Below are positions 11,006 through 35,801 of a stretch of DNA of 64,000 nucleotides, piece after piece. Position numbers and translations under genes: made by a program. Positions within the stretch are counted from its first letter, which is position 1, and each line of letters begins with the position of its first letter. The notes beneath the pieces are model-generated. The model saw nothing but the letters and a program-made list of their open reading frames with translations, ran no database searches and was not told the DNA's origin. This DNA comes from Lentisphaerae bacterium GWF2_49_21 (GTDB lineage: Bacteria; Verrucomicrobiota; Lentisphaeria; Victivallales; GWF2-50-93), in NCBI GenBank assembly GCA_001804805.1, contig MHBH01000054.1, positions 1-64,000 of the forward strand, in the 5' to 3' direction.

Positions 11006-11941
11006 ATGATAGAAATTGTAAACGACTACAAGAAGGCTTCCTTTGGGGGTTCCATCAAGAATGCGATTTCCTTTTCTTCTAAGCTTGGGGAGATGGCGAT
11101 GCGTGTAAGCAGGAACAAGCTTGATGCAAGATACGATTCCCAGATCAGGAAGCACATCGAAAAGATGAATTCCGGGAAATTCCGTATTTTCCGCCATATA
11201 TACATCGAAACCATCAACAGGTGCAACGGGGGATGCAGGTTCTGCCATGCAAACAGATTTACCGACAAGAGGGAAATGGAGCTGATGGACGAGGGTCTGC
11301 TGGAAAAGATCCTCAAGGAACTGAAGGAAATGGAATTCAAGGGCTGGATCTCGTTCCACAGGAACAACGAACCTTTCCTCGACAAGAGAATTTTTGATTT
11401 TGTAAAAATGATGCGGGAGTCAATGCCAGATGCATTGATAAACATCCATTCAAACGGGACTCTGCTCAACATCGAAAAGATATATAGGATCATGCCACAT
11501 CTTTCATTCCTCAACATCAACAATTACAATGACAAGCTCGAGCTTCATGACAACATCAGGGAGACCGTAGAGCACTTCAACAGGACAAATGAATTTGACG
11601 GCCTGATAAAGGTCTGCCTCAGGAAAGAAAATGAAATTCTCCTTAACAGGGCTTCTTCCGCCCCCAACAGGAAAATGGGATATACCATGAAATCTCCATG
11701 CCTGTATCCGTTTGAACAGTTGAATGTCTGCTCCAATGGGAATATTTCCATCTGCTGCAACGATGCGTTCGAGGATGTTGTTCTCGGGAATGCAGGAGAA
11801 CAGACGCTTGAAGAGATCTGGCACGGCGAAAAGTTCAAGGATATAAGGGATAAGATGCTGATGGACAGGAACTTGATAAAAATATGCGGAAAATGCGACA
11901 TAATAACTCCGCCGACCAGGAATCCCAATGAGAACGACTGA
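11006..11941 (+). CDS. Radical SAM protein with SPASM-like C terminus
   Basis: A 311-residue radical SAM enzyme. The 4Fe-4S cluster cysteines are C73-x3-C77-x2-C80 (CNGGCRFC). A C-terminal set of cysteines (CLYP..., ICCNDAF, CGKCD) should hold an auxiliary cluster, as in SPASM proteins. It begins 3 bases after pseI, suggesting cotranscription, and overlaps the next gene by 14 bases. Members of this type in glycan loci may modify sugars or lipid-linked intermediates, but the substrate cannot be deduced. Confidence 0.88.
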   Translation: MIEIVNDYKKASFGGSIKNAISFSSKLGEMAMRVSRNKLDARYDSQIRKHIEKMNSGKFRIFRHIYIETINRCNGGCRFCHANRFTDKREMELMDEGLLEKILKELKEMEFKGWISFHRNNEPFLDKRIFDFVKMMRESMPDALINIHSNGTLLNIEKIYRIMPHLSFLNINNYNDKLELHDNIRETVEHFNRTNEFDGLIKVCLRKENEILLNRASSAPNRKMGYTMKSPCLYPFEQLNVCSNGNISICCNDAFEDVVLGNAGEQTLEEIWHGEKFKDIRDKMLMDRNLIKICGKCDIITPPTRNPNEND

Positions 11942-13013
11942 GATTATTGCCGCCGGCGGCGACATTGGAGGGGCGATGGCCCTTCTGCCTGTTCTTCGTG
12001 AACTTGACAGGAGAAAAATCGGATTCAGCCTTGTCGACCATGGCATAATCTCCGGAAAATCGGGAAGTGGATGGGAAACCATCACCGAAGAGGAGAGCTT
12101 CTCCTGTTTTGAATCTGGAAAAGCAGGCGTTCTTATCTTCACGACCAGCGTGAAAGACGACTTCCCCCTGAAACTTGCGAGATTCGCTAGAGGTCACGGC
12201 TCAAAGGTCTTCTCCCTTCTTGACAACTGGATGAACTACCGCTACAGGATGGAAATTGATGCCGGAGGATTTTTCCAGCCCGACATGTTCTTTGTCATGG
12301 ATGAATATGCCAGGCAGGAATCTATAAAGGACGGCTTCGATGAAAAAACTGTCGTTGTAACCGGACAGCCTGCCATTGCAGGCCTGAAGGACGAATATGC
12401 CGCATGGCTTTCAAAAGGGGAGGTGATTTTCCGGGACTCGTCAAAGATCAACATGGTTTTCATATCCGAGCCGGTGGAACAGGACAATGGAAAATCAGCC
12501 GCTGACAATCCAAATTTCAGAGGCTACACCGAAAAGACTGCCCTGAAAGCACTATTTGAATCGCTTGAAGGCCTTGCTGGCAAATACAGTCTTTCCATCA
12601 TTCCCCATCCCCGAGAAGACAAGCTCCAACTTGAATCCTTCATCAATGAATTTTCAGGCGGCTCTGATATAAGGATGGGGTCAGGGATCAGTGGAAGAAA
12701 CGCTGTTTTTTCAGCTGATATTGTAATCGGGATGGCATCGATACTCCTTTATGAAGCATGGCTTATCGGAAAGCCCGTTGCAAGCCTGCAACCATGTCTT
12801 AGAAGACCGCATCTCCGCTTCCTCAATCAGGAAGGAATATTATTTTTAGATGTTGAATTGCCAAAAATAAATAATATTTTAAAAAAATGGTTGCAGAATT
12901 TCAAGAAAACAGGCTTCCCTTCGGAAATAAGGGGTGAAGCCGAACTCCACTCCCATTCGGCAGATTATATTGCCGATATATTATCCAACCATCTAAACAG
13001 AAGAATCACATGA
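11928..13013 (+). CDS. GT-B-fold glycosyltransferase-like protein
   Basis: A 361-residue protein with two Rossmann-like halves. The first begins IIAAGGDIGGAMALLPVLREL. The second has LSIIPHPRED at about residue 222 and ADIVIGMASILLYEAWLIGKPV, the pattern of the C-terminal domain of capsule/CDP-glycerol-type transferases and UDP-GlcNAc epimerase-fold proteins. No signature fixes the donor or acceptor. It overlaps both neighbours. Best described as a GT-B-like glycan enzyme of unknown specificity. Confidence 0.7.
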   Translation: MRTTEIIAAGGDIGGAMALLPVLRELDRRKIGFSLVDHGIISGKSGSGWETITEEESFSCFESGKAGVLIFTTSVKDDFPLKLARFARGHGSKVFSLLDNWMNYRYRMEIDAGGFFQPDMFFVMDEYARQESIKDGFDEKTVVVTGQPAIAGLKDEYAAWLSKGEVIFRDSSKINMVFISEPVEQDNGKSAADNPNFRGYTEKTALKALFESLEGLAGKYSLSIIPHPREDKLQLESFINEFSGGSDIRMGSGISGRNAVFSADIVIGMASILLYEAWLIGKPVASLQPCLRRPHLRFLNQEGILFLDVELPKINNILKKWLQNFKKTGFPSEIRGEAELHSHSADYIADILSNHLNRRIT

Positions 13014-14972: not shown

Positions 14973-16661
14973 ATGAATAACAAATCATCCAGTGTTTTCC
15001 TTCTTGTCAGGGTTCCTGAAATAGAATACGGCATAAAGACCGGTGATGTCAGAACCAGCGCAAGATCGGCTATTGTCATACCCCTCGGATTTGCCAGCCT
15101 TGCCTCAACAATCAGGGAAAAGACCGATTACAAGGTGAAGGCGGTCGATCTCTACGCGGAGCTGTTTGACAAGCTTGAAGATCTTAGGAACAAGGAAGAA
15201 TCAGAAACCCTCAGATTGATAACCGAAAGTCTTTTTGAATATATTGGGATGCACAAGCCTTCTGTCATAGGTTTTTCAGCCCTCTATATCTTCCAGCACA
15301 AACTGGTAAAAGAGATATGCATGGCGGTAAGAGGGAGATATCCGGACATAAGGATATATGTCGGAGGCTATCCTACCATATCTCCGGAAATGATATTCAA
15401 TGACATGGATGGGTGCTGTGATGTCATATTCATTGGAGAGGCGGAAAATACAGTTGTAAAAGTCCTCGAGGCCGAAAACTCCGGCGCATCCCTCGGCCAG
15501 ATAAACGGGATTGCATTCAAAGACGACAAGGGGGTGCATGTCGTGCACACCCTCGACCTCGTCCAGGATTTAAATTCATTCCCCCTGCCCGCATATGACA
15601 TGCTCCCGCTTGAAAAATACACATCAATAATAGGCCGCAGGGAATTTCCCATAATGACTTCAAGGAGTTGCCCGTTCGACTGCAGCTTCTGCTCCTCCTT
15701 CCTTTATTCCGGGAGGAAGATGAGATTCAGATCCGCCGCCTCGCTGATGGAGGAGATAAGGATTCTGAAAGACCGGTTCGGAGCCGAATTCCTATGGATC
15801 CGCGATGATAATTTCAATGTGAATAAGGAACACGCCAAGGGTTTCCTGCGCAGTCTCATATCAAATAATCTTTTAATGCCCTGGTGTGATTCGAGCTCCT
15901 TCAATGCAAACAGCATCGATGAGGAACTGCTTGATCTCTGCAAGGAGACCCTCTGCAAGGAAATCATTATCGCAGTGGAGTCCGGCTCGCAGAGGGTTCT
16001 CAAGGAAATAATGAAAAAACGCGTCGACCTGGATCATGTGAAAAAAATGGTGGCGCACACGAGAAAGCTGAAACTTCCCGTGACAATCTACTTTGTCGTC
16101 GGCAATCCGGGCGAAACAAAAGAAGAGATACATGAAACCATAGCTTACGCCGGCGAACTCAAGGCGGATCATTATGTGTTCTCGATAGCCACTCCGTTCC
16201 CGGGCACAAGATACCATAAGGTTGCAATTGAAAAAGGATATCTCTCAGATAATCCTGACTACATTTTGACCCTGAAATATATGGGGTCTGTAATGGATAC
16301 GGAGAATTTTACGGCGGAATGGCTCAAGGACACGCAATATGATGCGAACATAAGGCTGAATTTCCTGGAGAACAGAAAAGTCCTGTCATCAGATAAGGAA
16401 CTTATGCTGGAAGGCCTCGCCAGGTATTCAGCAACATATCTACAGTATAATTTCCATGCTGTGGCCAGGCTCCTGGAAGGATATCTGAACATGAGGGTTG
16501 GAAACGTGGAAAAAGGCGGGAGGATCTTCGACAACGTTGAAAACATGCTCAAGAACAAGACCATTTCCGATTCCTACTCGAAATATTTCCTCTGGGATAC
16601 CCCTGCCACAAATGCATATAATAAATGGCTGGCTGAAAAGAAAGGACGGGGCGGCAAATAA
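14973..16661 (+). CDS. B12-binding radical SAM protein (BchE-like architecture)
   Basis: A 562-residue enzyme. The N-terminal third is a cobalamin-binding domain (IGFSALYIFQHK, then YVGGYPTISPEMI, with GEAE at its end). The radical SAM cluster motif is C233-x3-C237-x2-C240 (CPFDCSFC), followed by IRDDNFNVNKEHAKG and a VESGSQRVLKEIMKKR strand. Such proteins methylate unreactive carbons or rearrange substrates. Its place in a glycan operon suggests C-methylation or radical chemistry on a sugar. It starts 27 bases after the methyltransferase. Confidence 0.9.
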   Translation: MNNKSSSVFLLVRVPEIEYGIKTGDVRTSARSAIVIPLGFASLASTIREKTDYKVKAVDLYAELFDKLEDLRNKEESETLRLITESLFEYIGMHKPSVIGFSALYIFQHKLVKEICMAVRGRYPDIRIYVGGYPTISPEMIFNDMDGCCDVIFIGEAENTVVKVLEAENSGASLGQINGIAFKDDKGVHVVHTLDLVQDLNSFPLPAYDMLPLEKYTSIIGRREFPIMTSRSCPFDCSFCSSFLYSGRKMRFRSAASLMEEIRILKDRFGAEFLWIRDDNFNVNKEHAKGFLRSLISNNLLMPWCDSSSFNANSIDEELLDLCKETLCKEIIIAVESGSQRVLKEIMKKRVDLDHVKKMVAHTRKLKLPVTIYFVVGNPGETKEEIHETIAYAGELKADHYVFSIATPFPGTRYHKVAIEKGYLSDNPDYILTLKYMGSVMDTENFTAEWLKDTQYDANIRLNFLENRKVLSSDKELMLEGLARYSATYLQYNFHAVARLLEGYLNMRVGNVEKGGRIFDNVENMLKNKTISDSYSKYFLWDTPATNAYNKWLAEKKGRGGK

Positions 16662-18947: not shown

Positions 18948-19682
18948 ATGGAACATGGCAAAACAGCAGTTGCAATAGTGATGGCCAGAGGAGGCTCCAA
19001 GGGCATACCGAAGAAAAACCTATCCCTGCTCCGCGGGAAACCACTGATCCAGCACGCCATTGAGTCGGGATTGAACTGTCCCGAAGTCGACAGGGTCATC
19101 GTCAGTACCGATTCCCCGGAAATAGCTGATGCCGCAAGGAAATGCGGGGCGGAAGTCCCGTTCCTGAGGCCTGCGGAACTCGCACAGTCCGATACGCCCG
19201 ACAGACCTGTAATGGTCCATCTCATCAAGTGGCTGAAGGAAAATGAAAACTATGAATTCGCCTATCTTGTCAATCTGCGCTGCACGACTCCGCTCAGGCA
19301 GCCCTTCCATGTCAGCGAGGCAATGGGCGTAGTGACAGGCTGCGACTGCGATTCCCTGAGGACGGTGGACAAGATCCAGGGGAAACATCATCCCTACTGG
19401 ATGCTGAAGATGGACGAAAACGGATTTTCCGCGCCTTTTGTCGACGGGATAAGCACGGTGAAATACCATCAGCGTCAGCTTCTTCCTCCTGCTTATTCGA
19501 TAAACGCCCTTGTCGATGTTATAAAAGTAAAAACAGCGCTCGAAGCGGAATCCCTTTACGGGAAAAAAATGAAGATTCTCGAAACCGACCCTATTTATTC
19601 TGTAGACATAGATACTGAAGAGGATCTCATAATATGCTCTGCAATAATGGAAAAATTAAATCTGCTGATAAAAAAGAAATGA
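18948..19682 (+). CDS. Acylneuraminate (nonulosonic acid) cytidylyltransferase
   Basis: A 244-residue CMP-sugar synthetase with IVMARGGSKGIPKKNLSLLRGKPLIQHA at the N terminus (CTP-binding motif) and EVPFLRPAELAQSDTPD. It is clearly distinct from the PseF at 7717, so the cell likely activates a second nonulosonic acid, such as legionaminic or neuraminic acid or a variant. A matching synthase lies two genes on, at 20577. No Shine-Dalgarno is visible. Its stop overlaps the next start (ATGA). Confidence 0.88.
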   Translation: MEHGKTAVAIVMARGGSKGIPKKNLSLLRGKPLIQHAIESGLNCPEVDRVIVSTDSPEIADAARKCGAEVPFLRPAELAQSDTPDRPVMVHLIKWLKENENYEFAYLVNLRCTTPLRQPFHVSEAMGVVTGCDCDSLRTVDKIQGKHHPYWMLKMDENGFSAPFVDGISTVKYHQRQLLPPAYSINALVDVIKVKTALEAESLYGKKMKILETDPIYSVDIDTEEDLIICSAIMEKLNLLIKKK

Positions 19683-20548
19683 ATAAGATCAGCATAGGGG
19701 CCGGCGACGGCTGGCATAAGGAAGGATGGGATTCCCTGGACAACGCTCCAGCTTCTTTCAAACATCCCGGACAACATTTCGGAACTGCCTGGAACAGCAG
19801 GCTTTCCCATTCTCATTATGACATTGTATTTTGTGCAAATATGCTGGAACATGTCCCAACCTCCAAAGTTGAGAAGGTATTTGCTGAATTCAATAGGATC
19901 ATGAAGATCGGCGGATTCATCAGGGTGACCATGCCCGACCTGAAAAAAGCGGCTGAAGCATATGTAAAGAACGACAAGGAATACTTTTCCAAGGGACAGA
20001 TCCATAAATCCGACCATCTCGGAATTGGTTCAATGTTTCTCAACATAATGATATCCCCAGGACACGACACTGTCCTTATGAGCCGTGACTTCAATGAAGT
20101 GCTGGGAGGATATGGGCATGTCACATCATACGATTTTGAAATGCTCAAGACTTATTTCGAAAAATGGGGGTTTGGAGAGGTCAGGCAGACCGGATTCTGC
20201 ATGTCGGCAAATGAGGAGCTCCGTGAACGACAGCGCATCTCCGCAAACGGCAAATACTATCCCGTAGATGATGAAAATGCCCAGAAGGAAATGAGTAATT
20301 GCCCACAGGAATGCTTTATCACAGGTTTCGACAACCAGCCGGAGCATTCGCTTTATGTCGAAGCCCGGAAGACAAAGGAGATCCCATACAGCATTGATCT
20401 GGAGTTCGACTATAACAAACGCTACAAATGCGATGACATAGTGACAAGGATAAAGCTCTCGGTGATGAGGATTTCATGCCACATCATTGATCTGTGCCTT
20501 GTAAAATCGGGTCTCTTGTCGCTTGCCAGGAAGATAAGGGGGAGATAG
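19679..20548 (+). CDS. SAM-dependent methyltransferase-like protein
   Basis: A 289-residue protein. The N-terminal half has HYDIVFCANMLEHVPTSKVEKVFAEFNRIMKIGGFIRVTMPDL, the typical methyltransferase core of strand 4, helix and strand 5; the glycine-rich motif I (ISIGAGDGWHKEGW) is shortened, as in small type-11 methyltransferases acting on predicted SAM sites. The ATG at 19679 overlaps the cytidylyltransferase stop and is preferred to a start 45 bases earlier. The last 40 residues are basic with a hydrophobic stretch and may contact the membrane. It separates the cytidylyltransferase from the NeuB-like synthase. Confidence 0.78.
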   Translation: MNKISIGAGDGWHKEGWDSLDNAPASFKHPGQHFGTAWNSRLSHSHYDIVFCANMLEHVPTSKVEKVFAEFNRIMKIGGFIRVTMPDLKKAAEAYVKNDKEYFSKGQIHKSDHLGIGSMFLNIMISPGHDTVLMSRDFNEVLGGYGHVTSYDFEMLKTYFEKWGFGEVRQTGFCMSANEELRERQRISANGKYYPVDDENAQKEMSNCPQECFITGFDNQPEHSLYVEARKTKEIPYSIDLEFDYNKRYKCDDIVTRIKLSVMRISCHIIDLCLVKSGLLSLARKIRGR

Positions 20549-20576
20549 TTCAAAGTCCCAAGGAAAGGATATTTCT

Positions 20577-21617
20577 ATGAAATGGTTCGACAAAAACATT
20601 TTGAGGAACAAGCATGTCTTCGTGATCGCCGAAGCCGGTATAAACCATAACGGCGACTTTGATCTCGCCCTCCAGCTTGTTAAAAAGGCGAAGGAGGCCG
20701 GAGCCGACTGCATCAAGTTCCAGACATTCAGATACTCCTCCAGCGAGTCGAAGAATTCCACAATGCCCGGATATTTCACCGGACGCCTCAGCTGCAGGAC
20801 AAAGAAAGACTGGTATGATTCCATAGAATTCTCCCTGCAGCAGTTCAAGGACCTCAAGGAATACTGCGAGGAGATGGACATAGCCTTCCTTTCAACGGCA
20901 TGCGACATCGAAGGTCTTGAAATCCTCAAGGAAATCAAGGCGGAGGCGATAAAGATAGCATCTGCCGACATGAACAACGACTATCTGCTTTCAGCCCTGG
21001 GCAGGACCGGAATACCGGCCATTTTCTCGACCGGCATGTCAACACTGGCAGAAGTCAGGCATGGCCTTGACACATATCTGTCGAACGGTGGTACTAAATT
21101 CGCGATGACCCAGTGCACTTCCCAGTATCCAACTCCTTACGAGGACATAAATTTGAAGGCGATGGAAACATTGGGCAGGGAATTCAAATGCCCCATCGGC
21201 CTTTCAGACCATAGCGAAGGCATCTATATCCCGATAGCTGCCGCCGCGATGGGCGCGAGAATAATCGAGAAGCATTTCACGATAAGCAGGGATCTTCCAG
21301 GCGTGGATCATCCGGCTTCCATCGAACCTGCGGAACTTGCGGAGATGGTAAAAGGAATAAGACAGGTCGAAACCGCCCTCGGCACAGGAAGCAAGACTGT
21401 ACAGAAGGCCGAACTGGACAATGCCAAACATATGAGGAGAAGCCTGATGGCCGCATCCGATATATCGGCTGGAACAGTCCTGGAGATTAAACATATCGCG
21501 GCAAAACGCCCGGGCACTGGCCTCCCCCCCTGCATGATGGACAAGATCATAGGGAAAAAGCTGCGTGTTAATCTCAAGAAGGAAGATATTTTCAAACTGT
21601 CTATGTTCTCAAGATGA
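20577..21617 (+). CDS. NeuB-family nonulosonic acid synthase (second)
   Basis: A 346-residue PEP-condensing sialic/legionaminic acid synthase. It has FVIAEAGINHNGDFDLALQL, KFQTFRY, FLSTACDIEGLEIL, KIASADMNN and GLSDHSEGIYIPI with IIEKHFTI downstream, then a SAF domain (VLEIKHIAAKRPGTGLPP). It differs from PseI at 9953 and so should make a different nine-carbon acid. No NeuC/LegG-like hydrolysing epimerase is recognisable in the window, so the six-carbon precursor is uncertain. AAGGAAAGGA lies before the ATG. It overlaps the PHP gene by 4 bases. Confidence 0.9.
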   Translation: MKWFDKNILRNKHVFVIAEAGINHNGDFDLALQLVKKAKEAGADCIKFQTFRYSSSESKNSTMPGYFTGRLSCRTKKDWYDSIEFSLQQFKDLKEYCEEMDIAFLSTACDIEGLEILKEIKAEAIKIASADMNNDYLLSALGRTGIPAIFSTGMSTLAEVRHGLDTYLSNGGTKFAMTQCTSQYPTPYEDINLKAMETLGREFKCPIGLSDHSEGIYIPIAAAAMGARIIEKHFTISRDLPGVDHPASIEPAELAEMVKGIRQVETALGTGSKTVQKAELDNAKHMRRSLMAASDISAGTVLEIKHIAAKRPGTGLPPCMMDKIIGKKLRVNLKKEDIFKLSMFSR

Positions 21618-22318
21618 TAAAACGCCAATTTATTAAAAGATTTAGGAATCTGAAAAAGGATGACCTGCATGTGGACCTTCACATGCATTCCACTTGGACT
21701 GACGGCGCTCTGTCCCTGAGGGAAATTGCGAAAACCGCAAAGAAGATGGGCCTCACCATGATCGCCATGACCGATCATGTAAGAAAGAATTCCACCTACT
21801 GCAAAGATTACGAAGAGGAAATAGGGGAAGTTTCAAAGGAGACAGGCCTGGAAATACTGACCGGATTCGAAGCGAAGGTCGTCAGCGCCAAAGGGGAACT
21901 GGATCTTCCTCCATACTGCAGGCGCGGCAGGCATCTGATCATAGGCAGCGTCCACAGTGTTCCCATGAAAGGGAAGACCGTCCATCCAAAGGATATTTCT
22001 CGGGATGATCTCCAGGACCTTGAACTGAAATATTCCCTTGCGATCATCAAGGGCGGCAAAGCGGACATCCTCGGCCACGCAGGAGGGATGACAATAGGCA
22101 TATACGGCGGTTTCAGCCTTGTTTATCTGGAGAAGATCATACGCACATGTGGAAAGGGAGACACGGCATTCGAGATTAATTCCAGATATCATGGAAGCAT
22201 CATCAGGGAAATATGGGAACTGCTTTCCAGGTACAATCCGCTTGTTTCGTTCGGCTCCGACGCCCACTCCAAATCTGAAATTGGAAACTGCATAAGGATG
22301 GCTGATTCCCTAATATGA
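21614..22318 (+). CDS. PHP-domain metal-dependent phosphoesterase
   Basis: A 234-residue single-domain PHP protein. DLHMHSTWTDG near residue 20 and AMTDHV near residue 57 are the first two metal-binding motifs; GSVHSVP, LGHAGG and FGSDAHSKSEIG give the later ones. PHP proteins of this size hydrolyse phosphate esters such as histidinol phosphate. Coupled by 4-base overlaps to the NeuB-like synthase before it and the ATP-grasp gene after it, it could remove a phosphate from a nonulosonic-acid 9-phosphate; that is inference. Confidence 0.88.
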   Translation: MIKRQFIKRFRNLKKDDLHVDLHMHSTWTDGALSLREIAKTAKKMGLTMIAMTDHVRKNSTYCKDYEEEIGEVSKETGLEILTGFEAKVVSAKGELDLPPYCRRGRHLIIGSVHSVPMKGKTVHPKDISRDDLQDLELKYSLAIIKGGKADILGHAGGMTIGIYGGFSLVYLEKIIRTCGKGDTAFEINSRYHGSIIREIWELLSRYNPLVSFGSDAHSKSEIGNCIRMADSLI

Positions 22319-23289
22319 AAAAGACAAGCATAGGCATAAGCGCCGCCGATTCAATAGTCGGGCACGGCATCATCAAATCCCTTAAGAAGTCCGATCTCAG
22401 GGACAGCATCAGGATAGTTTGTTTCGAATATTTCGAGGGCACGGTCGCCTCCCAGTGGACCGAAAAGACATATATGATGCCTGACATCCTTAAAAGCGGC
22501 GTCTCCAGGGAAAGCTATATTGAAAAACTCATTTCCTCGATCAAAGCCGAAGACATCAAGATCCTTTTTGTCGCCATAGGCTTTGAACTTGAGATGATGG
22601 CGGCCAGCCGTGATCTCATCAGGAAGGAAACAGGCTGTGAGGTCATAGTAAGTTCGCCGGAAGTGATAAGTATCGCCGAAGACAAGTATGAGACATTTAG
22701 GTTTTTAAAAGCTAACGGCCTCCCCTACCCGCTCACCTGGCTTCCCGGAGAGATTGACAAGGCAATATATCCTGCGATCGTCAAGCCCAGAACCGGAACT
22801 GGAAGCAAAGGGGTCTATGTTGTGAATTCAAAAGATGAGCTTTTGAAGAGGCTGTCTGAAATTAAAAATCCTGTCATTCAGGAAAACATCGGTACGAAGG
22901 ACGATGAATACACCTGCGGAGTGATTTATCTCGACGACGAGGTAAAGACATACATCTGCCTCAAGAGATATCTGAAGTTCGGGAACACCATATCGGCATA
23001 TCATTCGAAGAATGCTCCTTCAACCATACGGCCATATATAGAGAAAATATCGCATGCCTTGAAACCTTTCGGACCGTGCAATTTCCAGCTCCGCATTGAC
23101 AAGGACGGAAATCCGAAGCTCTTTGAGATCAATGCCCGTTTCTCTGGTACCACATCGATGCGCCCGTATTTCGGGATCAACGAATCCGAATACATGGTCA
23201 AGCATCTTCTGGGAATGGAAGTCCCTGCAACATCGCTGAAGTATGGAAAAGTCCAGAGATACCAGGAAGACCTTTTTATCCAGGAATGA
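22315..23289 (+). CDS. ATP-grasp domain ligase
   Basis: A 324-residue ATP-grasp protein. It has a pre-ATP-grasp Rossmann domain (GISAADSIVGHGIIKSLKKS), the lid/lysine region YPAIVKPRTGTGSKGVYVV, and the Mg-binding end LFEINARFSGTTS. It would join a carboxylate to an amine through an acyl phosphate. The pairing with PHP and NeuB-like genes suggests amidation or aminoacylation of a sugar acid. It overlaps the PHP gene by 4 bases. Confidence 0.87.
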   Translation: MKKTSIGISAADSIVGHGIIKSLKKSDLRDSIRIVCFEYFEGTVASQWTEKTYMMPDILKSGVSRESYIEKLISSIKAEDIKILFVAIGFELEMMAASRDLIRKETGCEVIVSSPEVISIAEDKYETFRFLKANGLPYPLTWLPGEIDKAIYPAIVKPRTGTGSKGVYVVNSKDELLKRLSEIKNPVIQENIGTKDDEYTCGVIYLDDEVKTYICLKRYLKFGNTISAYHSKNAPSTIRPYIEKISHALKPFGPCNFQLRIDKDGNPKLFEINARFSGTTSMRPYFGINESEYMVKHLLGMEVPATSLKYGKVQRYQEDLFIQE

Positions 23290-23290
23290 A

Positions 23291-24166
23291 ATGAAAAAGA
23301 AAATACTTATCACCGGCTGTCTTGGATTCATCGGAAGGAATCTTTATGCGTCGCTTAAAGACAGATATGAGGTCTTCTGCGTCGACTGCGCCGCCAAGCC
23401 TGCTGGAATTCAAAAGAACTATTTCCGTGTCGATCTCCTCGATTCAAAATCCGTCGCCAATTTTGCAGGGAAGGTATCCGGAAAGCATTTTGCAGCAGTC
23501 ATCCATACGGCATTCCTCCTATGCGGAAAGAATGACCGCAGAAGCTTCGATTATTTCAGAAAAAACAATTTGATCACGGAAAACATGATACGTCTTCTGG
23601 ATGCTATCAAATTCGACACCCTTATAAACTTCTCAAGCCTGGCCGTATACCCCGTCAGAAACGGCTCCTTCAGTGAGGAATCGGAGAGCAACATGTCAGC
23701 CAACACCGAATGCCTTTACGGGATCTCAAAGTTCAACTCGGAAATGCTGTTCAGTTTTTTCCTGGGAGGAAAGTCGAAAGTCGTAAACCTAAGGCTGTGC
23801 CAGGTGTATGGTCCCGGAATGCAGGATGACAGGCTGGTCGGAGCATTCAGGAAGGAGCTTTCCGAAAAAAACACGATAACGGTTTATGGCAATGGAAAAA
23901 GAATAAGTAATTTCCTCCATGTCAGTGACCTGTGCGGAGCAGTCAGGACGGTACTTGAAGAACCTGTCACAGGCACCTATAATCTCGGTTGTTCCAGGAA
24001 TATTTCCTATCGGGAACTCGCTGAAAAGATTATTTCCGCCAAGGGAGACAAGTTCTCGAAAATAGTGAAGGTCCCGCAGGGAAGCAGCGCAAAAGCCGCA
24101 ATAGGAACCTTTAAATTTGAAAAGACCTTCAAATATAAATGCAAAACACAGGACTTTGGATTCTGA
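23291..24166 (+). CDS. NAD-dependent epimerase/dehydratase (extended SDR)
   Basis: A 291-residue extended SDR. ILITGCLGFIGRNLY is the NAD-binding motif and YGISK (after ECL) the catalytic Tyr/Lys motif; LRLCQVYGPGMQDDRLV and the DLCGAVRTVLE segment are typical of nucleotide-sugar epimerases. It starts 1 base after the ATP-grasp stop. An in-frame start 48 bases earlier would lie inside that gene. Substrate unknown, probably an NDP-hexose of the second sugar-acid module. Confidence 0.88.
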   Translation: MKKKILITGCLGFIGRNLYASLKDRYEVFCVDCAAKPAGIQKNYFRVDLLDSKSVANFAGKVSGKHFAAVIHTAFLLCGKNDRRSFDYFRKNNLITENMIRLLDAIKFDTLINFSSLAVYPVRNGSFSEESESNMSANTECLYGISKFNSEMLFSFFLGGKSKVVNLRLCQVYGPGMQDDRLVGAFRKELSEKNTITVYGNGKRISNFLHVSDLCGAVRTVLEEPVTGTYNLGCSRNISYRELAEKIISAKGDKFSKIVKVPQGSSAKAAIGTFKFEKTFKYKCKTQDFGF

Positions 24167-24168
24167 AC

Positions 24169-25224
24169 ATGAACACAAAAATCAAAAACATTCTTCTCCT
24201 GCGGTCAGCCGATCTTAAAAGCACGCTGAAGGCGCTTGAACTGCTCAGGATTAAATTCCCTGGAAGCGCAGTCCATGTGCTCGCCCAGAAAAACGCATCC
24301 GAATTCATTTCAGAAAATGCGAAATTCGCAAAGATAATACGGTTCCCGTACCGCGACTTCAACATGGCAGTGCCTGATTCGGCGCTGTCCTCAGTTACCG
24401 CGATGGACATAGCACTTTCCCTCTACAAGAACGACGGCGGCGGATACGACGAGGTGGATGCATTCCTTGTATCACGAATAAAAGCCGGTGCATATGGAAA
24501 CATAAACGGCTCCTTTGAGATCTCATATTCAAAGCTGTCCCCCGGCCGCAGGAAGAAGATCTCCGACAAAGGGATGTCCCTGCTCTACGGCGGAGACACG
24601 AAAGCCATCGCGAGGAGTTCATCCTTCAGCAGGAAATTCGCGTCCGCCAAATCATTTGTCGTATTCTCCGGAGATTCTGAAATAATTGTCGACGAGGGAG
24701 GCGGATTCAGAATGGCACCCGGATCCATCTGCAGGTTCGGATATGTCGCTCCTGACTGGAAGGGAATCCGGGATGACGGAAAGGCGGTTGCAAGGATCCA
24801 GAAAGGTGCGACCTTCGAGATAAATGGCAGCTGCAATTTCTTCAACGGGGTCAGGATAAACCTGTTTCCTGGCGCTAAATTCTTGATCGGGGACGGTTCA
24901 TATATAGCTTTCAACAGCAGGATCTTCTCGGAAAGGGAGATCATCATTGGAAGGAATTGCGCCATCTCGTGGGATGTGGAGATGATGGACACTGATTTCC
25001 ACAGGGTGAGTCTTGCCGATGAGAACATCCGCAGGGACGGGATACATATCGGCGACAATGCATGGATTGGCGCCGGCGTGAGGCTGATAAAGGGAGTCCG
25101 GCTCGGGAACAATGTGATAGTCGCAGCCAGTTCGGTTGTGACAAAATCATTCCCCGACAACTCCATCATAGCTGGAAATCCCGCGCAGGCCGTAGGCATG
25201 AAAAAAGAAAATTTAAGAATTTAA
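24169..25224 (+). CDS. Two-part protein: heptosyltransferase-like N-terminus plus hexapeptide acyltransferase
   Basis: A 351-residue protein. The first about 70 residues (NILLLRSADLKSTLKALELL, then FPGSAVHVLAQKNASEFI) look like the N-terminal Rossmann strand-helix unit of GT9 heptosyltransferases, but the rest of that enzyme is missing. From about residue 190 the protein is a left-handed beta-helix acyltransferase (IIIGRNCAISWDVEMMDTDFH, GDNAWIGAGVRLIKGV, ending IIAGNPAQAVG), the type that acetylates sugars. The middle has no clear assignment. It starts 2 bases after the previous stop and contains a palindrome copy at 24319-24329. Confidence 0.82.
   Translation: MNTKIKNILLLRSADLKSTLKALELLRIKFPGSAVHVLAQKNASEFISENAKFAKIIRFPYRDFNMAVPDSALSSVTAMDIALSLYKNDGGGYDEVDAFLVSRIKAGAYGNINGSFEISYSKLSPGRRKKISDKGMSLLYGGDTKAIARSSSFSRKFASAKSFVVFSGDSEIIVDEGGGFRMAPGSICRFGYVAPDWKGIRDDGKAVARIQKGATFEINGSCNFFNGVRINLFPGAKFLIGDGSYIAFNSRIFSEREIIIGRNCAISWDVEMMDTDFHRVSLADENIRRDGIHIGDNAWIGAGVRLIKGVRLGNNVIVAASSVVTKSFPDNSIIAGNPAQAVGMKKENLRI
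24319..24329. repeat. GCGAANTTCGC palindrome, site 3
   Basis: GCGAAATTCGC in the acyltransferase gene, read as NAKFAK. Confidence 0.7.
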
Positions 25225-25244: not shown

Positions 25245-26336
25245 ATGAAGTATAAGATCCAGCAACTGCTCGAAGAAACCCTCAGGGAGGAACTGCAACG
25301 TTATGAATGCATAAAGAACCGCCAGACGTCCTGTCCTGTGCCTCCTAACCACATCTATGTGGAGCCGACGAACAAATGTTTCCTGAAATGCGTAATGTGC
25401 ACAGACAAGGAGATCCGCGGAAAACCCGGGGAGATGTCCTTCTCTTTATGGAAGAAGATCGTCGACTCCATCGCCAAATACAAGGTGAAGTCCCCTATCA
25501 ACATCATCGGCAGGGGCGAACCGCTGATGAACAGGAATCTCCCGAAGTTCGTGGAATACGCCACGTCGAAGGGACTTGAGACGGCGATAATATCGAACGG
25601 CGTCATGCTTGACAAGAAATATGCCACGGCCCTGCTCAAGGCGGGGATAAACAAGATCCAGTTCTCCATCCATGCATTCAGCAGGGAGACTTATTTCAAG
25701 ATCACCGGCGTGGATGTCTATGACAAGGTGAAGAAGAACCTTCTTGACCTCTTAAAGCTGAACAAGAAATTCGGAGGCAAATGCTACATCAATGTGATGA
25801 GCGTCGAATCCCACATAAACAAGCACGAGAGCGCAGCGTTCCTGAAATACTGGACGCCACGGGTCGACAGGGCGTTTGTAACGCCGATCTATTCCATTCA
25901 GGGCGAAAGCAAGATGGCAAAGGAGTCAATAAAATCCATAGAGCAGAAATCTGGCGTCAAGATTGGCAAGTCAAAGCACAAAGGCTGCGCGTATCCGTGG
26001 TTTTTCCTCAGCTACCGCCAGGACGGCACCATTAATCCATGCCCATATGACTTCAAGACTTTTTTCAATATCGGAAATGCGAATGATCGTGACTACGATC
26101 TGATGAAGGTATGGAACAGCAAGGAGATGCAGAAGTTCCGCCAGAACCATCTCGACGGCGAGTATTCATACTGCAAATCCGTAAACTATACCTGCGAGGA
26201 ATGTGAAGTCCCTCTGGCCTTGCATACATACAAGGGGCTTGACCAGTATGTGAATGACTTCCACATCGTGTTTTCAAGGGAATACGCCTCCATCCTGAAG
26301 ATGGCGGCCGTCTCAGAAGGCGATACAAGGAACTGA
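25245..26336 (+). CDS. Radical SAM/SPASM protein
   Basis: A 363-residue radical SAM enzyme. Cluster cysteines are C45-x3-C49-x2-C52 (CFLKCVMC); GRGEPLMN and the NGVMLD strand follow. The C-terminal part has CAYPWFFLSYRQDGTINPCPYD and CEECEVP, a SPASM-type auxiliary cluster set. The start at 25245 has AAGGAG 9 bases upstream; the frame is open farther back, but that region belongs to the preceding gene. Related in type to the protein at 11006. Substrate unknown. Confidence 0.9.
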   Translation: MKYKIQQLLEETLREELQRYECIKNRQTSCPVPPNHIYVEPTNKCFLKCVMCTDKEIRGKPGEMSFSLWKKIVDSIAKYKVKSPINIIGRGEPLMNRNLPKFVEYATSKGLETAIISNGVMLDKKYATALLKAGINKIQFSIHAFSRETYFKITGVDVYDKVKKNLLDLLKLNKKFGGKCYINVMSVESHINKHESAAFLKYWTPRVDRAFVTPIYSIQGESKMAKESIKSIEQKSGVKIGKSKHKGCAYPWFFLSYRQDGTINPCPYDFKTFFNIGNANDRDYDLMKVWNSKEMQKFRQNHLDGEYSYCKSVNYTCEECEVPLALHTYKGLDQYVNDFHIVFSREYASILKMAAVSEGDTRN

Positions 26337-26343
26337 CATTATC

Positions 26344-27054
26344 ATGGTCAAATCCGGAAAAACAGTCCTTATCACAGGTGCGAACAGGGGCATAGGCCTT
26401 GCACTTGTCGAAAATTATCTTGAGCATGGATGGACCGTCTTTGCATGCACCAGGAAATGCGAAATTCGCAGCCCCCTCTCGAGGCTTCGCAGGAAATTCT
26501 CAAATTCCATCGTGAAGCTGAGGCTGGACGCAACCAATGAAAAGAGCATATCACATGCGGCAAAGGCTGTTTCAAAATATGCAAAATCCCTCGATCTCCT
26601 GATCAACAACGGTGCGGTCTTCCATGACAATGAGAGCATCCTGAAGTTTGATGCAAAAAAATCCGCGCAGTCGTTTGCAACAAACGCCACCGGACCGATG
26701 ATTATCGTCAAGCACTTCATCCCCTTGTTGAAGAAGTCTGAGAGACCTGCAGTAGTGAACATATCATCAATTTCCGGTTCGCTTTCAAGGGTCTCGTCCT
26801 TTTCCGGGCTTTACACCTACAAGGCGAGCAAGGCGGCCTTGAACATGTTTTCAAGGCTCCTCAGCCATGAACTCAGGAAATACGACATCCCCCTCTTCAT
26901 CCTGCACCCCGGACTTGTAAAGACCCGCTTGAATCCGAAGGGAACTATCTCACCTGAGGAATCTGCCGGAAAAATATTTGCAGCAATAGAGAAGCTTGGA
27001 ATCCAGGATTCGGGAAAGTTCATCACATTGGATTCCAAGGAATGCCCTTGGTGA
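26344..27054 (+). CDS. Short-chain dehydrogenase/reductase
   Basis: A 236-residue classical SDR. VLITGANRGIGLALVENYL is the cofactor motif, LINNGAVF the NNAG-like strand, and SSISG followed by YTYKASKAALN the catalytic Ser-Tyr-Lys set. Such enzymes oxidise or reduce a hydroxyl/keto group; in this cluster the substrate is likely a sugar or polyol. It starts 7 bases after the radical SAM gene and carries a palindrome copy at 26459-26469. Confidence 0.9.
   Translation: MVKSGKTVLITGANRGIGLALVENYLEHGWTVFACTRKCEIRSPLSRLRRKFSNSIVKLRLDATNEKSISHAAKAVSKYAKSLDLLINNGAVFHDNESILKFDAKKSAQSFATNATGPMIIVKHFIPLLKKSERPAVVNISSISGSLSRVSSFSGLYTYKASKAALNMFSRLLSHELRKYDIPLFILHPGLVKTRLNPKGTISPEESAGKIFAAIEKLGIQDSGKFITLDSKECPW
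26459..26469. repeat. GCGAANTTCGC palindrome, site 4
   Basis: GCGAAATTCGC in the SDR gene, but in another reading frame from sites 1-3: read as CEIR. Confidence 0.7.
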
Positions 27055-27064
27055 GCAAGTCTTG

Positions 27065-27964
27065 ATGCCTAAACTTAAAATATCCTCCGAAAGAATATTC
27101 ATTTCAACTACCTGCCTGAAGGCCGACATCATGGCATCGGGAGTTCCCGAAGGTGTAAGAGGAGTCGAATTCAGCGGCGGATTCAGCTACAGGCCGGTGG
27201 ATGAATTCAGGAAATGCATAGGGAGCATTAAAGCCTCTGGAACAAACATCCTGATCCATGGATACTTCCCTCCACAGGAGAAAAGCTTCATCCTTAACTT
27301 TGCAAGCAAGGACAAGGAAGTGCTCAGACAATCCATGTCGCTTGCGGACGAAGCGCTCAGTCTGTGTGCAGAGTTCGGAATACCCTACTATTCCTTCCAT
27401 CCGGGATATCTTGCCAGCGGATATGAGAACGGAAAGGGCCATTTCATATTCGACAAGACAGGATTTGACGATTATGCGGACACCCTGACCAGATTCAGCA
27501 GGAACTTTGAAAAGCTTTATGATCTTTCAAAACGGCATGGAATAAGGCTTGCCGTTGAAAATCTCTTCATAAACAGGGGCAATGTCAAAGATTCGCTGAA
27601 CAACTCATTTGAAGAAGTTGACGAACTGATGTCATCACTGCCAGGAGACGTGGGCCTTCTTCTCGATCTCGGGCACATGAACGTATCCGCCAGCTACATG
27701 AATTTCAGCAGGGACGGATTCATCGGCAGATATCTGGAGAAGTTCGGACGGAGGCTTTTTGAGATCCACATGTCGGAGAACAAGGGGGATTTCGACACCC
27801 ATGATCCTCTGACGGCGGACAGCTGGCAGCTCGAGGCGCTGGATAAATTCAAAGACTGCCCCGGTGTTTCAGGCGAAGGGATAAACGTCACCCTTGAATC
27901 AAGGAAGATGGAAAAAGATTTGATAGCCGGGAACATCTCGCTGATAAGGAAGTCCTTAAATTAA
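27065..27964 (+). CDS. TIM-barrel sugar phosphate isomerase/epimerase-like protein
   Basis: A 299-residue protein of the xylose-isomerase-like (AP endonuclease 2) fold. YYSFHPGYLAS, RLAVENLFINRGN, LLLDLGHMNVSA and FEIHMSENKGDFDTHDPL supply the usual His/Glu/Asp metal ligands at strand ends. Family members isomerise or epimerise sugars. The ATG at 27065 lies 10 bases after the SDR stop; an open frame farther upstream overlaps that gene and was not used. Together with the SDR it may prepare a sugar for the nearby enzymes. Confidence 0.85.
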   Translation: MPKLKISSERIFISTTCLKADIMASGVPEGVRGVEFSGGFSYRPVDEFRKCIGSIKASGTNILIHGYFPPQEKSFILNFASKDKEVLRQSMSLADEALSLCAEFGIPYYSFHPGYLASGYENGKGHFIFDKTGFDDYADTLTRFSRNFEKLYDLSKRHGIRLAVENLFINRGNVKDSLNNSFEEVDELMSSLPGDVGLLLDLGHMNVSASYMNFSRDGFIGRYLEKFGRRLFEIHMSENKGDFDTHDPLTADSWQLEALDKFKDCPGVSGEGINVTLESRKMEKDLIAGNISLIRKSLN

Positions 27965-27987: not shown

Positions 27988-29661
27988 ATGGATGCTTTGC
28001 TTAAGAAAATGATATTCGACGAGAAGGCAACTGTATCAGATGCTATTGAATGCTGCCTGCATGGTTCCAAGAAAGTCGCGTTCTGCGTTGACAGGAAAGG
28101 CAAGTTCCTCGGTCTTCTCACCGAAGGAGATCTTCTCCGGCTCTTCAAGACGGGAGTGAAGCTGACGGACAAGGCAGTCAACCACATAAACAGGAATCCA
28201 ATTATGGCTTCCGAAGAACTCTCCATTTCCGAAGCAAAGAAAATGCTGGGCAGCAGGATACAGATAATCCCGAGGGTGGATGCCAAGGGAAGACTTGTCG
28301 GATATGTCGACATGACAAGCTACGAATACGGATTCATCACAATCAAGAACAAGACCGTGATGATCCTGGGACTCGGCTATGTCGGCCTTACCCTGGGCCT
28401 TGTGATGGCCGATTCAGGATATGCGGTCAAGGGATTTGACGTCAACAAGGGGCTTATGGCGAAACTGAAGAGGAAGGAACCGCCCTTCTATGAAAACGGT
28501 CTGCAGGACCTTCTTGACGACCACATAGACAAGAGGTTCAAGCTGGTCGACTCACCCGAGGGTAATGCCGCGGAAGTCTTCATAATCACCGTTGGAACTC
28601 CGATTGACAAGGAGACAAAGGAACCCAAGATGGATATGATAAGGGGCGCAGCCAAAACTGTCGGCAAGATGCTTTCAAAGGACAACATTGTGATACTTCG
28701 TTCAACTGTAATGATAGGTACTACGAGGAATGTCGTCATCCCTGAACTTGAAAAGGCGTCCGGCATGAAGGCGGGAAAGGACTTTTTCGTGGCGTTCTGC
28801 TTTGAAAGGACTGCAGAGGGACGCGCCTTGAAGGAACTGAGGGTGCTTCCCCAGATCATAGGCGGATATGATGAGAAGAGCTGTGAAATCGCTTCCCGTC
28901 TCTTCAATGAATACACTCCGACAATCATCAAGGTCGACAGTGTTGAAACCGCCGAATTATGCAAGCTGATGGACAACTGCTACCGCGACGTGAGGTTCGC
29001 CTTCGCAAACCAGCTTGCGACGCTGGCGGAAAAAATAGGGCTCAACATCCACAAGGCGATCGACGCGGTTAATCTCAATTACCAGCGCAACAGCATTCCC
29101 AAGCCCTCTCCCGGAGTCGGAGGCCCCTGCCTTACAAAGGATCCTTATATTCTTAACAAGGTTTTCAGGCTTTGCGGAATGGACGCCGATCTGCTCCTCT
29201 CCGCCAGGAAGATAAATGAGACGAGTGTCAAAGTCATACCGTCACGTTGCGATAAGATCCTCAGGGGATCAGGAAAGACTCTGAAAGGCGCCCGGGTTTT
29301 CGTGGTCGGCTTTGCATTCAAGGGCGAACCGGAGACATCGGATCTCAGGGATTCGACAACCCTGTGGTTCCTGGAGAGCCTCAGGAAATATACCAAGGAC
29401 ATAAGCGGATATGATCCTGTGGTCACGTCGGCGGAGATAAAAAACCTTGGAATAAAAGCCGTCGGGATCGAGGATGGATTCAGGAATGCAGACGCCGTCT
29501 TCATAATGAACAACCACCGGTCATATCTCCACTGGAACATCGAAAAGCTCGTGGTGAAGATGAACAAGCCGGCGATATTTTTCGACAGCTGGTACGTTTT
29601 TGCCGAAAGAAACATGGCGCAGTATAAAGACATAATATATACAAGCATCGGGATTGGATAA
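27988..29661 (+). CDS. CBS-domain pair fused to UDP-sugar 6-dehydrogenase
   Basis: A 557-residue fusion. Residues 1 to about 120 are a CBS pair (FLGLLTEGDLLRLF and GRLVGYVDMTSYEYG are the two typical ends). The remainder is a full UDP-glucose/UDP-ManNAc dehydrogenase: ILGLGYVGLTLGLVMADSGY for NAD, VGTPIDKETKEPKMD, and the catalytic Cys381 in GVGGPCLTKDPYIL. The latter form is closest to the WecC/WbpA group acting on N-acetylhexosamines. The CBS pair suggests adenylate- or nucleotide-sensitive control. AGGAGA precedes the ATG. It could supply the uronic acid used by the Wbp-like genes at 59835-64000. Confidence 0.93.
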   Translation: MDALLKKMIFDEKATVSDAIECCLHGSKKVAFCVDRKGKFLGLLTEGDLLRLFKTGVKLTDKAVNHINRNPIMASEELSISEAKKMLGSRIQIIPRVDAKGRLVGYVDMTSYEYGFITIKNKTVMILGLGYVGLTLGLVMADSGYAVKGFDVNKGLMAKLKRKEPPFYENGLQDLLDDHIDKRFKLVDSPEGNAAEVFIITVGTPIDKETKEPKMDMIRGAAKTVGKMLSKDNIVILRSTVMIGTTRNVVIPELEKASGMKAGKDFFVAFCFERTAEGRALKELRVLPQIIGGYDEKSCEIASRLFNEYTPTIIKVDSVETAELCKLMDNCYRDVRFAFANQLATLAEKIGLNIHKAIDAVNLNYQRNSIPKPSPGVGGPCLTKDPYILNKVFRLCGMDADLLLSARKINETSVKVIPSRCDKILRGSGKTLKGARVFVVGFAFKGEPETSDLRDSTTLWFLESLRKYTKDISGYDPVVTSAEIKNLGIKAVGIEDGFRNADAVFIMNNHRSYLHWNIEKLVVKMNKPAIFFDSWYVFAERNMAQYKDIIYTSIGIG

Positions 29662-29667
29662 GATCAC

Positions 29668-30636
29668 ATGAAAAAACAGAAAGTTCTTGTCACGGGCGGT
29701 ACCGGCTTCATCGGGGCCGCATTGGTTAAAAAGCTGGTCGACCTGGGATATCCTGTCAGGGTGTTCGACAACAATTTCAGGGGGAAGAACACCCGTCTTG
29801 AAGGGTATCTCGGAAAACTTGACCTGATTGAAGGCGATATCCGGGACGAAAAGAAGGTCATGGATGCTGTCAAGGGAATGGACATCGTCTACCACCTTGC
29901 GTTCATAAACGGGACAAGGCACTTCTATGAGATTCCCGAGCAAGTGCTGGATGTCGGCGTGCGAGGGGCGCTCAACACCCTGAAGGCGACCCTTGAATAC
30001 AAGCCCGCCCGCTATATCCTCGCCTCCTCTTCCGAGGTCTACCAGACGCCGACAAAAGTACCGACAGATGAGAAGGAGAGGATATTCCTGGACGATGTGA
30101 CCAATCCCAGATACAGCTATGCCGGAGGCAAGATCATAAGCGAGCTCCTGACATTGAATTATCTTAGGAAGTCCACAACTGAACCCGTGATTTTCCGTCC
30201 ACACAATGTCTTCGGTCCCGACATGGGATGGGAGCATGTGATACCAGAACTCCTTGTGAAGCTGGGCAAGTCCACGAACGGTTTTAAAAGCAGGAAGACG
30301 AAGATAGAGATCCAGGGCACTGGCGAGGAGACAAGGGCGTTCTGCTACGTGGACAGCGCCGTTGAGCAGATTGTCCTGTGCTCCGAGAAGGGCGCCGCAG
30401 GCGAGATATACCATATCGGAGAGATGAACGAAATAAGCATATTGCAGCTGATTGAAATGATCGGGAAGGTGCTTGGAATTGACATAGAGACCGTTCCGAC
30501 TCCTCTCCGCAAGGGAGGTACGCCAAGGCGATGTCCTGACCTAGCGAAGATCAAATCCCTCGGATACAAGCAGCCTATTTCATTTGAGGAAGGATTGAAA
30601 CGCACTGTTGACTGGTATAGGAAGGAGAGCAAATGA
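29668..30636 (+). CDS. NAD-dependent nucleotide-sugar epimerase/dehydratase
   Basis: A 322-residue extended SDR with VLVTGGTGFIGAALVKKL, VYHLAFINGTRHFYE, SSSEVYQTP and YSYAGGK (catalytic Tyr/Lys). FRPHNVFGPDMGWEHVIPEL and the RAFCYVDSAVEQI segment are typical of UDP-sugar 4-epimerases and decarboxylases. It starts 6 bases after the dehydrogenase, so it may act on the uronic acid that enzyme makes. Overlaps the next gene by 4 bases. Confidence 0.9.
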   Translation: MKKQKVLVTGGTGFIGAALVKKLVDLGYPVRVFDNNFRGKNTRLEGYLGKLDLIEGDIRDEKKVMDAVKGMDIVYHLAFINGTRHFYEIPEQVLDVGVRGALNTLKATLEYKPARYILASSSEVYQTPTKVPTDEKERIFLDDVTNPRYSYAGGKIISELLTLNYLRKSTTEPVIFRPHNVFGPDMGWEHVIPELLVKLGKSTNGFKSRKTKIEIQGTGEETRAFCYVDSAVEQIVLCSEKGAAGEIYHIGEMNEISILQLIEMIGKVLGIDIETVPTPLRKGGTPRRCPDLAKIKSLGYKQPISFEEGLKRTVDWYRKESK

Positions 30637-31538: not shown

Positions 31539-31552
31539 AAGGGATGGCTGCA

Positions 31553-32653
31553 ATGGAATATATACCAGTGGCAAATGTCATTACTGAAGAAGCCGATGCA
31601 AAAGCTGTTTATGATGTAATCAAGTCTGGATGGATCAGCAAAGGCAGGAAAGTCGACCAGTTCGAAGCTCTTTTTGCAAAGGAAGTAGGAGCAGATGAGG
31701 CGATAGCGGTGAACAACGGAACATCCGCGCTTCATGTCGTCCTTGCCGCCATGGACATCGGCCCTGGAGATGAAGTAATCCTGCCCTCATTGACATTCAT
31801 ATCAACGGCAAATGTCGTCCTCTACCAGGGTGCGACACCTGTCCTTGTCGAATGCGATCCTCGCACATTCAACACTTCAGCGGAGATCATCGAAGCGGCT
31901 ATCACCCCAAGGACAAAGGCTATAATGCCAGTCGACATGAACGGCATGCCCATTGACTATGATGCGATCCTCGCAGTTGGCCGCAAACACGGGATACCGG
32001 TCATAGCCGACAGCGCCGAAAGTCTGGGCGCCATATATAAAGGTAAAAAAATCGGATGCATATGCGACATCCACTGTTTCAGCTTCTTCCCGAACAAGGC
32101 CATAACGACCGGTGAAGGCGGAATGATAACGACAAGGGACAAGAAGCTTTCAGAGCGGATGCGCAAGATACTCAACCAGGGGCAGGACGGCAGATACAAT
32201 CACGTGGAGCTGGGCTACAATTATAGGATGAACGACATCCAGGCGGCATTTGGAATCGTCCAGCTATCAAGGCTCGAAAAGATCATGGAGGCAAAAGTCG
32301 AACTGGTAAAGAAATATACAAAGTTCTTTTCAGGCCACCCGGAAATAACTCTGCCTCATGTCCCTGATTTTGTAACAAGGCATTCGTGGTACATGTATTC
32401 CATACAGGTTGATGAAGGCAAAAGGGATGAAGTGGTCAGGAAGCTGGAAGCCGACAAGATCCAGACCCGCCTGAGCTTCCCTCCTGTCCATATCCAGAAG
32501 TATTATCAGAAACGCTTCGGTTGGAACGACGAGTTCCTGCCTGCAAGCTATCACACATGGAAAAGGCTCATCAATATCCCGATCTGGCCGGGCCTTTCCG
32601 ATTCACAGCTTGAATACATAGCTGAAAAACTCATTAAGCACGTCAATTCCTGA
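31553..32653 (+). CDS. DegT/DnrJ/EryC1/StrS aminotransferase (perosamine synthetase-like)
   Basis: A 366-residue PLP-dependent sugar aminotransferase. VNNGTSALHVVLAAM and SFFPNKAITTGEGGM (PLP lysine) are clear; the MEYIPVANVITEEADAKAV N terminus and length fit the perosamine-synthetase-like 4-aminotransferases. The ATG at 31553 lies 9 bases after the AAAAGGG ribosome site, whereas an ATG at 31544 would be too close to it. Probably acts on a 4-keto sugar, possibly GDP- or UDP-linked. Confidence 0.91.
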   Translation: MEYIPVANVITEEADAKAVYDVIKSGWISKGRKVDQFEALFAKEVGADEAIAVNNGTSALHVVLAAMDIGPGDEVILPSLTFISTANVVLYQGATPVLVECDPRTFNTSAEIIEAAITPRTKAIMPVDMNGMPIDYDAILAVGRKHGIPVIADSAESLGAIYKGKKIGCICDIHCFSFFPNKAITTGEGGMITTRDKKLSERMRKILNQGQDGRYNHVELGYNYRMNDIQAAFGIVQLSRLEKIMEAKVELVKKYTKFFSGHPEITLPHVPDFVTRHSWYMYSIQVDEGKRDEVVRKLEADKIQTRLSFPPVHIQKYYQKRFGWNDEFLPASYHTWKRLINIPIWPGLSDSQLEYIAEKLIKHVNS

Positions 32654-35781: not shown

Positions 35782-35801
35782 GGCAGATCAGGAATTTAAA
35801 A

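Follow-up and report, generated by a model that had tools for sequence, protein, structure and literature searches.

The sialic-acid-like sugars of bacteria differ from one another in their side groups, and the prediction of their structures from genomes leans on a short list of genes. The closest described systems are the pathways to CMP-legionaminic acid (LegB, LegC, LegH, LegG, LegI and LegF, with PtmE and PtmF in Campylobacter), to CMP-pseudaminic acid (PseB, PseC, PseH, PseG, PseI and PseF) and to bacterial N-acetylneuraminic acid (Neu5Ac; NeuC, NeuB and NeuA). In addition there are the routes through Neu5Ac 9-phosphate or Kdn 9-phosphate, represented by NANS and NANP and their bacterial HAD counterparts, for which NanE is the usual bacterial source of N-acetylmannosamine 6-phosphate (ManNAc-6-P). 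Here we describe a gene module on the first 64,000 nucleotides of contig MHBH01000054.1 of Lentisphaerae bacterium GWF2_49_21, a stretch referred to as the window. Starting at position 18948, the module contains a nonulosonic acid (NulO)-type synthase and CMP-transferase pair that is distinct from a complete pseudaminic set in the same window and has no NeuC. It also carries genes for a PHP-family protein, an ATP-grasp ligase and an extended short-chain dehydrogenase/reductase (SDR), and this PHP-ATP-grasp(-SDR) array is a portable cassette that recurs in unrelated bacteria independently of NeuB.

An ATP-grasp gene within a glycan-tailoring locus is not without precedent. In Clostridium difficile, a mutant of the flagellin-glycan gene CDR20291_0245 builds its glycan no further than the trisaccharide and does not reach the sulfonated peptidylamido-sugar (PMC5207246), and sfmE is the ATP-grasp gene of a flagellin-glycan locus in Shewanella (PMC3765264). 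Compared by description, both differ from the gene in the window in being ATP-grasp_4 proteins with other partner genes and no reported PHP. The Sinorhizobium meliloti protein SMb21227, which belongs to a pSymB-type array of the three cassette families, is given as an ATP-grasp protein with no function assigned (PMC12542648). In the open literature that we searched, which did not extend to the 2009 amidoligase review by Iyer et al., no paper linked legionaminic acid with a PHP domain, those linking it with ATP-grasp concerned other loci, and the combination of PHP, ATP-grasp and SDR with NeuB was not found. The parts belong to known families; judged from sequence, their combination appears to be new among the NulO and surface-sugar loci of that literature.

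The second synthase module

The first gene of the module (18948-19682; like all genes of this module and of the pseudaminic set, on the + strand) encodes a CMP-sugar synthetase, a NeuA/PseF/LegF-like cytidylyltransferase (PF02348, CTP_transf_3, 80 bits) whose best solved relatives are CMP-Neu5Ac synthetases. It is followed by a class I SAM methyltransferase (19679-20548, alternative start 19634; PF08241, 25.5 bits), overlooked in an earlier sequence-only reading of this DNA, and by the NeuB-family nonulosonate synthase (20577-21617), in which the NeuB barrel (PF03102, 274 bits), a C-terminal SAF domain (PF08666, 33 bits) and the conserved NeuB motifs are all present. The cassette comprises a stand-alone PHP-family metallo-phosphoesterase (21614-22318; PF02811, 52 bits), an ATP-grasp ligase of the PRK12767 or CPSase-like kind (22315-23289; NF009402, 261 bits with a cut-off of 218) and the extended SDR, an epimerase or ketoreductase (from the ATG at 23291 to 24166; PF01370, 105 bits), which retains YxxxK (Y143, K147). 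A hexapeptide acyltransferase follows (24139 or 24169 to 25224); PF00132 (38 bits) covers only its C-terminal part, and the N-terminal domain of ~200 residues has no family assignment. Profile matches agree with all six families that the sequence-only reading had named. It had also described the genes as coupled by overlapping ends, which holds for NeuB and PHP (21614-21617) and for PHP and ATP-grasp (22315-22318), both joined by 4-bp ATGA overlaps, as are the cytidylyltransferase and methyltransferase genes (19679-19682); however, the methyltransferase intervenes before NeuB, from which it is separated by 28 nt, and ATP-grasp and SDR lie 1 nt apart.

We searched with the PHP protein in 100 relatives and then in 137 genomes from the order and 388 from the phylum; two proteins beyond the window matched strongly. 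One of them, in a genome from a different family of this order (G012, locus L038), sits in a block whose order matches that of the window: NeuB, methyltransferase, PHP, ATP-grasp, SDR, hexapeptide acyltransferase, radical SAM, SDR, TIM barrel and CBS-dehydrogenase, with a single weakly GDSL-like gene inserted between NeuB and the methyltransferase. Since G012 shares this order, the module is longer than the interval first delimited (18948-25224) and is conserved across two families. The methyltransferases are 45% identical and the acyltransferases 55% over their full length. Beyond 25224 the conserved block extends at least to the dehydrogenase starting at 27988. It includes a radical SAM/SPASM protein (25245-26336; PF04055, 64 bits; PF13186, 38 bits), a short-chain dehydrogenase (26344-27054; PF00106, 131 bits; 39% identity to G012) and a xylose-isomerase-like TIM barrel resembling sugar isomerases and epimerases (26996-27964; PF01261, 79 bits; 45%), whose true start is probably later, the G012 alignment beginning at residue 30. 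The next gene is a fusion of a CBS domain with a nucleotide-sugar dehydrogenase (27988-29661; TIGR03026, 352 bits with a cut-off of 189.8); its N-terminal 75 residues are 57% identical to the protein at the end of the G012 contig, the last gene of the block visible there.

The sequence-only reading had set the synthase and cytidylyltransferase apart from a pseudaminic pair, and the equivalog models bear this out. The window carries a long + strand run of surface-glycan genes in which the pseudaminic set comes first (4412-11002). This set is complete, with PseB (4412), PseC (5982), a Pse-associated methylase (6989), PseF (7717; 320 bits), PseG fused to a GNAT domain (8439-9956), apparently a PseG-PseH fusion, and PseI (9953; 490 bits), the five named Pse enzymes all scoring above their curated cut-offs. 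The second pair contains the same enzyme classes but fails the PseF and PseI tests: the cytidylyltransferase reaches 122 bits with TIGR03584 (cut-off 205.7) and is not a PseF, and the synthase reaches 265 bits with the PseI model (cut-off 340). The synthase also falls below the cut-off of the NeuB model TIGR03569 (367.7 against 399.65 bits). Its solved relatives are SpsE, PseI and NeuB. Asp131 replaces the Glu of PseI and of most LegI proteins, and an Asp is likewise found in three other members of the order. In the tree, the synthases of the window and G012 form a clade of their own (support 100/99), separate from the LegI proteins of the order, to which they are 36-42% identical; clade and identity both speak against the LegI type. 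Many of those LegI genes have LegG next door.

No NeuC or LegG (TIGR03568, cut-off 235.9) was found in the genome of the window, which is 95% complete and gave a best match of 72 bits, nor in G012, where the best match was 47 bits; this extends to both genomes what the sequence-only reading had noted for the window. The 72-bit match, a WecB-like gene at C54:69606, was rejected as a NeuC for scoring so far under the cut-off. All four genomes that hold the cassette together with LegI have a NeuC/LegG above it. NanE (PF04131) had no match in either genome and did match in control genomes, which leads us to reject a supply of ManNAc-6-P by NanE. Since neither genome, at 91-95% completeness, matches any of these, the known NeuC, LegG or NanE routes do not account for the acceptor. 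Among known NDP-sugar hydrolases of the NulO type, PseG of the window is the only one that we identified. A second module without NeuC is thus borne out, and the case for it is strengthened because the G012 order, the absence of NeuC from both genomes and the separate NeuB clade coincide. Two findings that the sequence-only reading had named as refuting it, a NeuC/LegG outside the window and a gene order that is not conserved, were looked for and did not turn up.

The PHP, ATP-grasp and SDR cassette

The PHP and ATP-grasp proteins have intact motifs. In a ten-row alignment, the PHP metal ligands H23xH25, H55, E86, H114, H155 and H218 are invariant and D216 is nearly so, giving the HxH...H...E...H...H...DxH pattern of the family. 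The model predicted for this protein (predicted local distance difference test score, pLDDT, of 94) has the PolX PHP domain, YcdX and histidinol-phosphatase as its nearest folds. K157, E271, N273 and R275 of the ATP-grasp protein are invariant as well, and both its score and its ATP/Mg residues place it among the PRK12767 carboxylate-amine ligases; the nearest folds of its model (pLDDT 92) are the CPSase-like 2PN1, L-amino acid ligases, PurK and PylC. The structure models were run on alignments without the Sinorhizobium row.

Contiguous PHP, ATP-grasp and SDR genes occur in four legionaminic loci, in G021 (L039, the other strong match), a Bacteroidetes metagenome-assembled genome (L025) and two Campylobacterota (L087, L088). 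All four hold LegC, LegI and LegG, and L025 and L039 additionally have LegB, PtmE, LegF, a PseA-type amidotransferase, HisH and HisF; these names rest on mutual homology and known motifs, with NeuC/LegG confirmed by TIGR03568. In L087 the order is LegC-PHP-ATP-grasp-SDR-LegI-LegG, so that LegC and LegI flank the triad on either side with nothing in between. The window thus resembles the legionaminic loci in having a NeuB-family synthase, a CMP transferase and this cassette among surface-glycan genes, and differs from them in its separate NeuB clade, in the absence of LegG/NeuC from the genome and, like G012, in a module without LegB or LegC above cut-off. Outside the legionaminic loci, pSymB-type plasmids of Sinorhizobium (L047) have all three families in this order, PHP and ATP-grasp being 33% and 37% identical to those of the window. 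No NeuB is present in the stretch read there, and the neighbours are the sulfate-activation genes cysQ, nodQ and cysD, along with genes for a sulfotransferase and a formyltransferase.

The SDR is the third gene in the window and in L025, L038, L039, L047, L087 and L088; in L051, L089, L090 and L091, PHP and ATP-grasp are adjacent without it. NeuB is missing from the stretches L051, L090 and L091, as from L047, Bacteroidota being included among these; its absence from L089 is uninformative because L089 is only a 7.2-kb contig. An ATP-grasp gene neighbours every stand-alone PHP of the strong class that was read (window, L025, L038, L039, L047, L051, L087-L091 and L122), a count that excludes a 390-aa frame in G1029 and also G1000, which falls into the class of L090 and L091. 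The remaining PHP matches at E<=1e-20 are frames of PolX length; those in Bacillus, Gemmatimonadetes, a Planctomycete and one Campylobacterales, of 444-737 aa, were set aside as PolX-type. A weaker stand-alone PHP (L042, G020:C100, ~9069-9737) has no ATP-grasp gene within 19 kb. The module had no phage match that would point to a phage origin, the sole match on a viral contig being a PolX-type frame of 557 aa.

Several phyla have genes for PIG-L de-N-acetylases (L087, L088, L089) or formyltransferases (L087, L047) near the pair, at 3312-4846 in L087, 797-1474 in L088, 739-1374 in L089 and 4283-5194 in L047. Their presence suggests a remodelling of amino groups, and the cassette is likely to attach an unusual group to sugars of the cell surface.

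Other genes of the glycan cluster

The genome of the window has a third NeuB-family gene (C73:56819-57661; L041 8820-9662), which encodes 280 aa without a SAF domain and neighbours genes for a methyltransferase, a CMP-transferase (38% identical to the product of the gene at 18948) and class III aminotransferase-like, glyoxalase-like and radical SAM-like proteins. The radical SAM/SPASM protein at 25245-26336 is the best conserved of the block, with 70% identity to G012. The cluster has three more radical SAM genes (11006-11941, 14973-16661 and 34297-35781), two of them of the B12-binding kind. The CBS pair at the N-terminus of the unusual 27988-29661 fusion is similar to the CBS region of PtmE guanylyltransferases (26%, 7e-10). 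Large open reading frames without any Pfam match are found at 32674-34287, 35670-36953 and 11928-13013. The cluster has a gene for an MBOAT O-acyltransferase near one end (36934-38337) and one for a FabH-like ketoacyl synthase near the other (2628-3554), and pseudopilin-type genes lie past the end of the window (L040).

Possible functions of the module

We favour, at about even chances, an uncharacterised branch of NulO synthases joined to a carboxylate-ligating amino-sugar cassette that decorates the NulO product or a neighbouring sugar. The small-clade NeuB would condense phosphoenolpyruvate with a six-carbon acceptor, and the cytidylyltransferase would then convert the resulting acid to its CMP-activated form. 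Neither NeuC or LegG nor NanE seems to be involved in making the acceptor, which may be supplied by the Pse branch, through PseG, or by the SDR and TIM-barrel enzymes of the block itself. The PHP-ATP-grasp-SDR cassette would stand outside the synthesis of the NulO ring. Its ATP-grasp enzyme would most likely ligate an ATP-activated carboxylate to the amino group of a sugar or of a nucleotide precursor with formation of an amide, while PHP might dephosphorylate or trim the sugar or group that takes part in this reaction, and the SDR might set a keto or hydroxyl centre. Together with the methyltransferase and the acyltransferase, the cassette would then decorate the second NulO product or an adjacent sugar in the same surface glycan. 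In the most economical model, a carboxylate is ligated to an amino sugar, and PHP and SDR make the two partners ready for this; we infer the reactions, the substrate and the order of steps. More tentatively, and with rather more doubt than confidence, we propose that the new NeuB clade makes a NulO from an acceptor obtained without NeuC, LegG or NanE and that the undescribed cassette, mobile between legionaminic and non-NulO loci of several phyla, adds a group.

Several points weigh against the model. Neither in the window nor in G012 did the block show a gene for a PIG-L protein or a PseA-type amidotransferase. The ATP-grasp family also includes enzymes that form acyl phosphates, carbamates or thioesters and enzymes that amidate carboxylates, and PHP enzymes may be nucleases or hydrolases of other bonds; the substrate and product suggested for the cassette are deduced from the genes. 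The absence of NeuC and NanE is that from genomes 91-95% complete, and the G012 block sits on one 13.8-kb contig, because of which the CMP synthetase of G012 is outside view.

Alternatively, the synthase could be a divergent legionaminic or neuraminic synthase whose NeuC/LegG is encoded at a distance or remained unassembled, the cassette being ordinary legionaminic tailoring. Its TIGR03569 score close to the cut-off (368 against 400 bits), the occurrence of the cassette in true legionaminic loci and a genome that is 95% complete are in keeping with this possibility. We nevertheless consider it unlikely in view of the separate clade, the low identity to the LegI proteins of the order, many of them adjoined by LegG, and the lack of NeuC in two genomes of different families. 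Moreover, the nearest window genes, of related families, are far under the cut-offs of the LegB (29668-30636; 144 against 475 bits) and LegC (31544-32653; 288 against 420 bits) models.

It is less probable still that the cassette builds a different sugar of the glycan, such as an amide-bearing reduced 6-deoxyhexosamine, and shares a polysaccharide operon with the NulO genes without any direct role in NulO synthesis. The Sinorhizobium cassette beside sulfate-activation genes and the NeuB-less pairs in L051, L090 and L091 would fit such a function. However, the cassette is beside or near NeuB or LegI in six loci, and the triad in L087 is closer to LegC and LegI than chance neighbours in a large glycan locus should be.

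The sequence-only reading had proposed that PHP removes a 9-phosphate from the NeuB product and that ATP-grasp amidates a carboxylate; such a Neu5Ac-9-P or Kdn-9-P type route, with NeuB using a hexose- or hexosamine-6-phosphate, could draw on the overlap of the PHP start with the NeuB stop, the phosphatase-like fold, the missing NeuC and a mannose-6-phosphate substrate (Kdn-9-P-like) that would not require NanE, but we regard it as the least probable reading because NanE has no match in either genome and the same PHP and ATP-grasp families occur in LegG-bearing and in NeuB-less loci. The module also differs from the described 9-phosphate routes in having a PHP rather than a HAD phosphatase. 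Legionaminic acid is a 3,5,7,9-tetradeoxy sugar; it therefore has no 9-hydroxyl and no 9-phosphate to remove. The presence of the cassette in legionaminic and NeuB-less loci makes PHP an unlikely NulO-9-phosphatase, a role we reject as the principal explanation, and implies that ATP-grasp need not amidate the NulO carboxylate; the two proteins may have a special role in the window.

Returning to a synthase branch joined to an amino-sugar cassette, a cassette common to the legionaminic loci of three groups and to surface-polysaccharide loci of rhizobia would extend the list of modifications that can be predicted from genomes. Two genomes that encode such a synthase but no known gene for making its acceptor suggest that nine-carbon acids are also reached by a route not yet described.

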